DNA from: Cyanobacteriota bacterium
Lineage (GTDB): Bacteria > Cyanobacteriota > Cyanobacteriia > CACIAM-69d
NCBI GenBank assembly: GCA_022402445.1
Contig: JAKRSF010000013.1
Span: 248,001-312,000 of the forward strand
Direction: 5' to 3'
Length of the DNA stretch: 64,000 nt
Positions 54,587-57,763 of this stretch are shown one piece after another; positions within the stretch are counted from its first letter, which is position 1, and every line of letters starts with the position of its first letter. Under the pieces are notes generated by a model. The model was not told the origin of the DNA, did no database searches, and saw nothing but the letters and a program-made list of their open reading frames with translations. Both the position numbers and the translations under genes were made by a program.

Positions 54587-56197
54587 GTGACCACCCAAAC
54601 CCAGGGAGCGCCCGCCTCCACCGCCGTCCCATCGGCCATCAACCGCGAATTCATCGCCATCCTCGACTTTGGCTCCCAATATTCGGAACTGATCGCCCGC
54701 CGCATCCGCGAAACCCAGGTCTATTCCGAAGTCCTGCCCTACCGCACCAGCGCCGACCAGTTGCGCCAGCTCCAGCCTAAGGGCATCATCCTGTCCGGTG
54801 GCCCCAGTTCCGTCTATGCCGACGGTGCCCCCCACTGCGACCCGGAACTCTGGAATTTGGGCATTCCCGTCCTGGGGGTGTGCTATGGGATGCAGTTGAT
54901 GGTGCAGCAGTTGGGGGGCCAGGTGGAGGCCGCCGATCGCGGGGAATATGGCAAGGCTGCCCTATTTGTGGATGATCCGACGGATCTGCTCACCAATGTG
55001 GAAGACGGCACCACCATGTGGATGAGCCACGGGGATTCCTGCACGGCCCTGCCCAGCGGCTTCGAGGTGCTGGCCCATACGGACAATACCCCCTGCGCCG
55101 CGATCGCGGACCACGACAAAAAACTCTACGGCGTCCAGTTCCATCCCGAGGTGGTCCATTCCCTCGGCGGCACCGCCCTGATCCGCAATTTTGTCTACCA
55201 CATCTGCCAAGCCCAGCCCACCTGGACCACGGAAGCCTTTGTGGAAGAATCCGTGCGGGAGGTGCGCGCCCGGGTCGGCGATAAGCGGGTTCTGTTGGCC
55301 CTGTCCGGCGGTGTGGATTCGTCTACCCTAGCCTTCTTGCTCCACAAGGCCATTGGCGATCGCCTCACCTGCATGTTCATCGACCAGGGGTTCATGCGGA
55401 AGGGGGAACCGGAACGCCTCGTGAAGCTCTTCCAGGAGGAGTTCCATATCGCCGTCGAATACGTCAATGCCCGAGAACGGTTCATTAGCGCGATCGCGGG
55501 GGTCACGGATCCCGAGAAAAAGCGCAAAATCGTCGGCCATGAATTCATTCGGGTGTTTGAAGAGGAATCCAAGCGCCTTGGCCCCTTCGACTACCTCGCC
55601 CAGGGCACGCTGTACCCGGACGTGATCGAGTCCGCCGACTCCAATATCGACCCGAAAACCGGGGAACGGGTCGCCGTCAAAATCAAGAGCCACCACAATG
55701 TGGGCGGCCTGCCGGAGGATCTGCAATTCAAATTGGTCGAACCCCTGCGCAAACTCTTCAAGGACGAAGTGCGCAAGGTGGGGCGATCGCTGGGCCTGCC
55801 GGAGGAAATCGTCCAGCGGCAACCCTTCCCCGGTCCGGGCCTATCCATTCGGATCCTCGGGGAAGTCACCGCCGAGCGGCTGAATATCCTGCGGGATGCG
55901 GACCTGATCGTGCGCCAGGAAATCAACCGCGCCGGGATTTATAACGACATTTGGCAGGCGTTTGCGGTGCTGCTGCCCGTGCGCAGCGTCGGCGTCATGG
56001 GCGACAAGCGGACCTATGCCTATCCCGTCGTCCTGCGGCTGGTGAAGAGCGAAGATGGCATGACCGCCGACTGGGCGCGGGTGCCCTATGAATTGCTGGA
56101 AACCATCTCAAATCGCATTGTTAATGAGGTGGAAGGGGTCAACCGCGTGGTCTATGACATCACCTCAAAACCCCCCGGCACCATCGAATGGGAATAG
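54587..56197 (+). CDS. guaA: GMP synthase (glutamine-hydrolysing)
   Basis: Converts XMP to GMP. 536 residues, beginning at a GTG. A class I glutamine amidotransferase domain ([13 protein letters not shown], nucleophile Cys in [12 protein letters not shown], His-Glu in [11 protein letters not shown]) is fused to the ATP-pyrophosphatase domain with the P-loop [12 protein letters not shown] and the dimerisation domain ending [17 protein letters not shown]. The sequence is complete and canonical. It is convergent with the CDF transporter gene across a gap that holds DnaA-box repeats. Confidence 0.98.
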
Positions 56198-56511
56198 GGT
56201 AAATGGCCCTGGACCGAGCCTAAAATCTGCGATCTTTTCCTGATTTTTGGCCCGGTCTTTTGCCTAACTTTTTGATGCCATTTCCGGGCGATCGCGGCCA
56301 CCCCCAAGGGCGGGATGGTCCATCTTTGCCTGTGGAAAACTACAGCTTTTCTGTGGAAAACTCGATCAATCTGTGGAAAACTCAGGTTTTTTAACCACAA
56401 ATGGTATAGACCTTTACGTTTTCTTATGATTTGCCGGAAGCCCTTGACGGGGGGCGATCGCGGCAATTTTGGGGTGGTTTTGGGGCGATCGCCCAGGGCC
56501 AGTTCGGGATG
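56198..56511. other. Convergent gap between guaA and the CDF gene, holding DnaA boxes
   Basis: A gap between two gene 3' ends with no coding frame. It is markedly more AT-rich than the surroundings, especially 56330-56430, and contains the DnaA-box cluster listed separately. Because both flanking genes end here, promoters are not needed, which makes the repeats harder to explain as ordinary regulatory sites. Confidence 0.7.
56331..56399 (+). repeat. DnaA-box cluster (three direct repeats plus one inverted box)
   Basis: TGTGGAAAA occurs at 56331-56339, 56352-56360 and 56372-56380, each inside the longer direct repeat CTGTGGAAAACT. Its complement TTTTCCACA is the cyanobacterial DnaA-box form. 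The copies are 21 and 20 bp apart, about two helical turns, so they face one side of the DNA. TTAACCACA at 56391-56399 is an inverted box one mismatch from TTATCCACA. AT-rich sequence (TTTTTTAACC, TTTTCTTATGATTT) lies alongside. Confidence 0.7.
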
Positions 56512-57450
56512 TCAGGGATAGCTGATGTGGTCACTGCGGTAGCTGCGCGGCTCCACATGGATCGTGATGCGGATGGGGGCATAGCGCTCCGCGAGGGTGG
56601 CCTCGACGGTTTCGGTGATGTCGTGGGCGGCGGTCACGTCCTCGGCCTCGACGATCAGGTGCATTTCCACGAACACCTGGCGGCCCAGCAGCCCCCGAGA
56701 GGCGATGTCGTGGCAGTCGATGACCCCCGGCACCGCCGTGACTACCCGATGGATTTCCTCCGGCGCGATCGCCATTTCGTCCACCAGCCAGGGCAAATTT
56801 TCCTTGAGCACCGCCCAGCCACTGCGGAACACCAGCAGCGCCACCGGCAACGCCAGCACCAGATCGAGCCAGGGCAGCCCCGCCTGGACCCCCAGGAGCC
56901 CCGCAATCACGACGATCGTGATCCACACATCCCCCATGGTGTGGTGGGCGTCCGCCAGGAGGATATTGCTGTTGAGCCGTCGCCCCTGCTGCCGTTCGTA
57001 GAAGGCCACAAAAATATTGGTGCCCAACACCAGCAGCATCAGCCACAGGACCGGCGTGGACATTTGCACCGGTTTGCCGGACCCGAGGAGGCGATCGAGG
57101 GCGCTGGTGAGGATTTCAAAGCAGGCCATGCCCAGGAAGGCGGCGATGCCCAGGGCTCCGATCGCTTCAAATTTGTGGTGGCCGTAGGGGTGTTCGCGAT
57201 CGGGGCGCGGGTCCGCGAGGCGGTTGGTGGTGATGCCGAGGATGTTGCTGGCGCTGTCGGTGACGCTGTGGAGGGCGTCGGCCATGAGGCTCAATGAGCC
57301 GGTCCACCAGCCCAACAGGGCTTTGATGATCAGCACAAAAACGTTGAGCAGGAGGGTGAGGATCAAGATCCGCAGGACGCCGCGCCGCCGCAGGGTTTCG
57401 ATCGCGGGGAGGTGGGAATCAGTGGCGGGCTCAGGGGGGAGGTGGGCCAT
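56512..57450 (-). CDS. Cation diffusion facilitator (CDF) metal transporter
   Basis: About 312 residues with six membrane helices and a cytoplasmic C-terminal domain. The metal-site motifs are DALHSVTDSASN (helix 2, HxxxD) and DAHHTMGDVW (helix 5, HxxxD), the pattern of zinc, iron or manganese exporters. The C-terminal domain (VIDCHDIASRGLLGRQVFVEMHLIV) fits the family dimerisation fold. Which metal cannot be decided by eye. The ATG at 57450 is used; the gene start overlaps the end of a small membrane-protein gene, a sign of coupled translation. Confidence 0.9.
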   Translation of the reverse strand: MAHLPPEPATDSHLPAIETLRRRGVLRILILTLLLNVFVLIIKALLGWWTGSLSLMADALHSVTDSASNILGITTNRLADPRPDREHPYGHHKFEAIGALGIAAFLGMACFEILTSALDRLLGSGKPVQMSTPVLWLMLLVLGTNIFVAFYERQQGRRLNSNILLADAHHTMGDVWITIVVIAGLLGVQAGLPWLDLVLALPVALLVFRSGWAVLKENLPWLVDEMAIAPEEIHRVVTAVPGVIDCHDIASRGLLGRQVFVEMHLIVEAEDVTAAHDITETVEATLAERYAPIRITIHVEPRSYRSDHISYP

Positions 57451-57763
57451 GGCGATCGCGCTCCGGTGACGCATCAGTGACGGAAGGGCGAAGGGATTTG
57501 AGTTGGGCGATCGCGGCGCTAGAGCCATAGGTGGCCGACAGCAGCACAAACCAGGTCAATAAACTGCTGTCCGGCGGCAGGGCCAGGTCGGGCCGCAACG
57601 CTCCGGCCCCCCACCGCAAACCGGCCAACAGCGCCAAAAATGCCCAGCCCCCTTGGCCGTAGCGCCGCCAGAGCCAGAGCCCCGCGATCGCCGCGATCGC
57701 AGGCATCCAGCCATAGAGCCCCCCAAGGGCCTGATCCGCCAGCTCCATCACCCGATCGTCCAT
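57431..57763 (-). CDS. Small membrane protein upstream of the CDF transporter
   Basis: 110 residues with two or three hydrophobic segments (WMPAIAAIAGLWLW, GWAFLALLAGLRWG and SLLTWFVLLSATYG). A GAGG ribosome site lies five bases before the ATG. It overlaps the CDF gene by 20 bp. I do not recognise the family; the overlap suggests a joint operon. Confidence 0.6.
   Translation of the reverse strand: MDDRVMELADQALGGLYGWMPAIAAIAGLWLWRRYGQGGWAFLALLAGLRWGAGALRPDLALPPDSSLLTWFVLLSATYGSSAAIAQLKSLRPSVTDASPERDRHGPPPP

Follow-up and report, generated by a model that had tools for sequence, protein, structure and literature searches.

Which function is served by three identical DnaA boxes lying between the converging ends of guaA and a cation-efflux (CDF) transporter gene, at a locus that adjoins neither dnaN nor dnaA? 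The earlier note on this DNA had proposed either a replication origin or a site of DnaA titration. In the following, the window is the whole 64-kb stretch that was analysed (G000:C5:248001-312000, part of a draft genome of 13 contigs), and the array within it (at C5:304331) is termed the gua site. Positions given without a contig are those of the window.

54587..56197, plus strand: guaA, encoding GMP synthase; flanks the site on the left in many families
56212..56257, plus strand: hairpin with a trailing TTTTG, probably the intrinsic terminator of guaA; precedes the boxes (-25.4 kcal/mol, z -5.2)
56331..56339, minus strand: DnaA box 1, TTTTCCACA, exact match; conserved in register in relatives
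56352..56360, minus strand: DnaA box 2, TTTTCCACA, 21 bp from box 1, exact match; conserved
56372..56380, minus strand: DnaA box 3, TTTTCCACA, 20 bp from box 2, exact match; conserved
56383..56432, no strand: AT-rich stretch adjoining box 3 (70% AT), a possible unwinding or bending segment
56391..56399, plus strand: near-box TTAACCACA, 2 mismatches; absent in relatives, probably not functional
56512..57549, minus strand: CDF transporter gene (PF01545, PF16916), convergent; right neighbour in several families

The boxes in the guaA/CDF gap and the origin question

The threefold repeat of CTGTGGAAAACT in steps of 21 and 20 bp was found as the earlier note had described it, with starts at 56330, 56351 and 56371 (three copies in the window) and interbox gaps of 12 and 11 bp. 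Its statement that the 64 kb contain no further TTTTCCACA also held, as all three exact copies sit in the convergent gap at 56198-56511, whose limits follow exactly from the guaA stop at 56197 and the CDF stop at 56512 on the minus strand. Shuffled versions of the window contained on average 0.31 copies of TTTTCCACA and reached three copies anywhere in 1 of 100 shuffles; same-strand triplets within 50 bp are expected about 2e-9 times per window. Box spacing at gua-type sites amounts to 20–22 bp, or about two helical turns, such that the boxes face the same side of the DNA. Two further claims of the note stood in part: a near-box in the opposite orientation exists, but deviates at two positions and is missing in relatives of the family; and the AT-rich character of the gap is a local one, as the 70% AT of the stretch next to box 3 exceeds the 36% of the window, whereas the whole 314-bp gap has 49%. 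The only terminator-like match reported by the scanner is situated within the boxes and does not rise above chance, and no Rfam match of meaningful score to an RNA element was obtained at the site. Between the boxes and the CDF gene (56452-56494) lies an inverted pair of GCGATCGC (HIP1-type) with a strong minus-strand fold (z -3.6).

Genome-wide pattern searches identified 50 exact copies of TTTTCCACA versus 13 for the reversed control, and only three clusters: the gua site, a triplet at C4:759-821 and a group of 11 exact boxes at C5:125204-125442. The latter is located about 0.5 kb from dnaN (C5:123551-124693) and 179 kb from the gua site, includes 11-bp tandem boxes that the gua site lacks, and is evidently oriC; dnaA resides on another contig (C11:502431). 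The gua site is thus not the densest DnaA-box cluster of the chromosome (3 versus 11 exact boxes). The search for a denser cluster, set beforehand as a test of the origin reading, came out against it: because such a cluster adjoins dnaN on the same contig, the gua site was rejected as the main origin. Cumulative GC skew along contig C5 did not turn clearly at the gua site or at the 11-box cluster, in a draft genome and with cyanobacterial skew often being irregular; GC skew has been reported as uninformative in most cyanobacteria (PMC7198777). When up to one mismatch per box was allowed, the two-box geometry occurred only at oriC in 300 kb of contig C5 covering sequence outside most of the window.

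Conservation of the array and a second array upstream of DUF2811

Conservation was analysed in a sample of 291 cyanobacterial genomes, with families counted according to the sample's own labels; guaA searches and triple-box pattern searches were run independently on the same sample and their coordinates then joined. An exact triple array is present 32-1089 bp downstream of the guaA stop in at least 40 genomes of 10 families. Among the matches listed, the array lies downstream of guaA in 40/40 cases and in the same orientation in 40/40, with TGTGGAAAA on the guaA coding strand each time (40/40), where random placement would predict 0.04 if kinship is ignored. Nineteen genomes without an exact triple were inspected directly; of these, 5 show the same geometry with only two boxes or with one mismatch, 14 have no such version, and many genomes and families that possess dnaA have no gua site. 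This distribution indicates that the gua site is old, often lost or absent, and non-universal. According to alignment and information content, the 27 box positions are invariant and the spacing is kept, with little conserved otherwise beyond a few box-flanking bases; across 37 gua sites there is a modest AT enrichment after box 3 (p = 0.012). A single recent copy appears unlikely as the source of the gua arrays, as these occur in ten families and their spacers are no longer similar. The distance from oriC ranges from 4 to 43% of the chromosome across genomes; a fixed distance as in E. coli was not seen.

Across 38 distinct gua-type sites, GuaA always lies to the left where it is present (28/28), and the CDF gene, in convergent orientation, to the right (21/21). 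Some sites are flanked by both genes, some by GuaA alone and ten by CDF alone (e.g., Microcoleus, L166). The array thus persists with either gene on its own and is therefore not the operator of one gene; it behaves as a stand-alone element, independent of either neighbour.

In a scan of named genomes, which agreed independently with the above, most cyanobacterial matches among those listed lie at DUF2811, guaA/CDF or dnaN/dnaA, and matches in Clostridia mostly beside dnaA. In Picosynechococcus sp. PCC 7117 (L219) and at two further loci (L100, L101), a triple DnaA-box array neighbours a small, membrane-protein-like gene, and none of GuaA, CDF, DUF2811, DnaN and DnaA is matched in the vicinity; Synechococcus PCC 7002, in which DnaA is dispensable, may be close kin of this Picosynechococcus strain. 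Other triple arrays with neither guaA nor DUF2811 nearby are those at G010:C1:2444046 (L064) and G032:C14:8589 (L071), as well as L104 and L105. Plasmid pSOE2 of Candidatus Pantoea edessiphila (L192) has a long 21-bp tandem run of TGTGGAAAAAACAGCATATCC at both record ends, which probably represents plasmid iterons.

The triplet at C4:759-821 of the present genome (three exact boxes; array entries G000:C4:738-821 and 1262-1432; L007, L032) belongs to a second type of array, located upstream of the gene for DUF2811 (PF10929, ~74 aa). Such arrays lie 252-647 bp from the gene, upstream and in the same orientation in 64/64 of the matches listed. They were found in 61/80 genomes from about 18 families and, by coordinates, in nine more, i.e., in at least 70 genomes. 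Their design is similar to that of the gua array, with spacings mostly of 21+22 or 21+21 bp (gua: mostly 21+20 or 21+21). The DUF2811 arrays are richer than the gua sites, as steps of 21 and 22 bp are followed by steps of 11 and about 11 bp and then by an AT-rich segment, where the AT content at +65..+105 is 0.66 versus 0.54-0.58 in the flanks (p = 3e-11). The protein itself is encoded in 286/291 genomes; AlphaFold2 predicted three helices at a mean pLDDT of 65, too weak for a fold search, and a search for sequence relatives in the PDB found none.

Three near-complete genomes of the sample lack dnaA (G142, G149, G156), and the triple array is absent from all three (p = 0.06, n = 3). Two of the four well-assembled genomes without DUF2811 are among these three (Fisher p = 0.0005, at small n and with genomes that are not independent), which suggests that DUF2811 and DnaA are functionally connected.

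Candidate roles of the gua site

With moderate confidence, we propose that the gua site is a conserved, autonomous element away from oriC at which bound DnaA is either titrated or modified in its activity. We infer DnaA binding from the same 9-mer in other cyanobacteria: DnaA of Cyanothece 51142 and of Anabaena 7120 binds the box TTTTCCACA (PMC4674748), which also makes up the oriC of the present genome. HA-tagged cyanobacterial DnaA binds oriC in vivo in S. elongatus (PMC7198777). As direct repeats of one consensus sequence at intervals of two helical turns, the three boxes would align bound DnaA along a single side of the DNA, beside the AT-rich stretch. The locus would then most likely hold DnaA (titration), or alter its nucleotide state in the manner of datA or DARS, and the amount of active DnaA reaching oriC would be tuned by it; this presumed effect on initiation is drawn by analogy. 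DnaA titration, the surviving reading of the earlier note, appears strengthened by the deep conservation of the array at its locus. Against this explanation, three boxes are few for simple titration, with about 50 single boxes scattered in the genome. The lack of the site in many genomes and families that possess dnaA, its variable distance to oriC and the total box counts of dnaA-less genomes, which are not reduced, likewise count against it. Although still speculative, the gua array could be the autonomous member of an old three-part DnaA circuit that further comprises oriC and the DUF2811-linked array, with DUF2811 as a partner or regulator of DnaA; the two off-origin sites, retained across deep evolutionary time, may explain why dnaA persists in some cyanobacteria whose replication no longer needs DnaA. 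We put this wider model forward only tentatively.

The main rival, which we consider unlikely, assigns DnaA a transcriptional role at the site, as a factor or roadblock that ends or blocks transcription from guaA or from the convergent CDF gene, thereby coupling GMP synthesis to replication. The constant orientation relative to guaA and the upstream position of the sister array at DUF2811 genes, both without exception among the matches listed, would be in line with such a role, as would the ability of DnaA to obstruct RNA polymerase and the report that guaB is among its targets in E. coli; this guaB site, however, was unbound in ChIP-seq (PMC11317965). At the gua site, a transcription role is weakened because the strong, probable hairpin-T terminator of guaA precedes the boxes, here and in several relatives, and because the array is also found where one of the two genes, guaA or CDF, is absent. 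Moreover, a promoter scan found no promoter-like site in the guaA/CDF gap.

Another protein, for example a nucleoid or chromosome-organising factor, might instead bind the 9-mers, in which case their likeness to DnaA boxes would reflect a shared vocabulary. Binding by DnaA at the gua and DUF2811 loci is, after all, deduced from the sequence, and genomes without dnaA, too, contain more single TTTTCCACA sites than expected from the reversed control. This reading nevertheless seems improbable to us in view of the same array geometry at cyanobacterial oriC and beside dnaA in Clostridia, and of the missing arrays in all three dnaA-less genomes.

Hardly to be expected, too, is a secondary or backup origin, in which three direct boxes and the adjacent AT-rich stretch would permit DnaA-driven unwinding. 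In favour of such a function, oriC of Cyanothece 51142 has only three boxes (PMC4674748), and some cyanobacteria use several origins (PMC7198777); the AT-rich side is conserved as well, modestly at gua sites and clearly at DUF2811 sites. On the other hand, a full 11-box oriC exists near dnaN, the multi-origin species replicate without DnaA (PMC7198777), and at the gua sites the AT enrichment is small and the boxes are few. A chance cluster or an inert relic carried along by linkage to guaA, which could by itself keep a neutral segment in place among close relatives, has a negligible probability, being contradicted by the minute number of exact triplets expected per window and by a conservation pattern in which most spacer sequence is lost across 10 families while all box positions and their spacing stay intact.

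Regarding the wider meaning, the role of DnaA in cyanobacteria that replicate without it has been named an open question by Ohbayashi et al. 2020 (PMC7198777). The two short, conserved off-origin arrays provide concrete loci for DnaA-binding and deletion studies, and the link to DUF2811 names a candidate protein. Searches of the open-access literature yielded no description of gua or DUF2811 arrays in cyanobacteria.

Comparison with known DnaA-box loci

As a group of consensus boxes that lies between genes and at a distance from oriC, the gua site corresponds in descriptive terms to an extra-oriC DnaA-box cluster. The best-known off-origin loci of this kind are those of E. coli and B. subtilis, and our findings suggest an old counterpart in another phylum. 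By analogy, the gua site would be comparable in role, and closest, to the DnaA-box clusters (DBCs) of B. subtilis and to datA/DARS of E. coli. Deletion of all six B. subtilis DBCs leads to early initiation (Okumura 2012, reviewed in PMC5295017). Shared with them are the location of DnaA-box groups away from oriC and the presence of several per genome; phylum and box consensus differ, and the gua site has three boxes, a two-turn spacing and deep conservation of its locus.

DARS1 and DARS2 of E. coli are likewise non-coding and have a core of three DnaA boxes, with conserved boxes and variable spacers (PMC4585315). The box pair of DARS1, however, is 3 bp apart (PMC11317965), whereas the gaps of the gua site measure 11-12 bp, so that paired core boxes at a distance of 2-3 bp, which define DARS structurally, are not found there. 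The datA locus, which reduces active DnaA, is also a non-coding DnaA-box cluster, but comprises five boxes and depends on an IHF site that separates boxes 2 and 3 (PMC4585315), while the interbox sequence of gua sites is not conserved; the structural definition of datA, an IHF site at fixed spacing between these boxes, thus does not apply to a site with such short interbox gaps. Furthermore, datA and DARS hold fixed relative positions in E. coli, and the distance of the gua site to oriC varies. Cyanobacterial oriC beside dnaN, finally, has the same 9-mer box, often in steps of ~21 bp, in common with the gua site, which differs from it in having three boxes only and in lying far from dnaN and dnaA.
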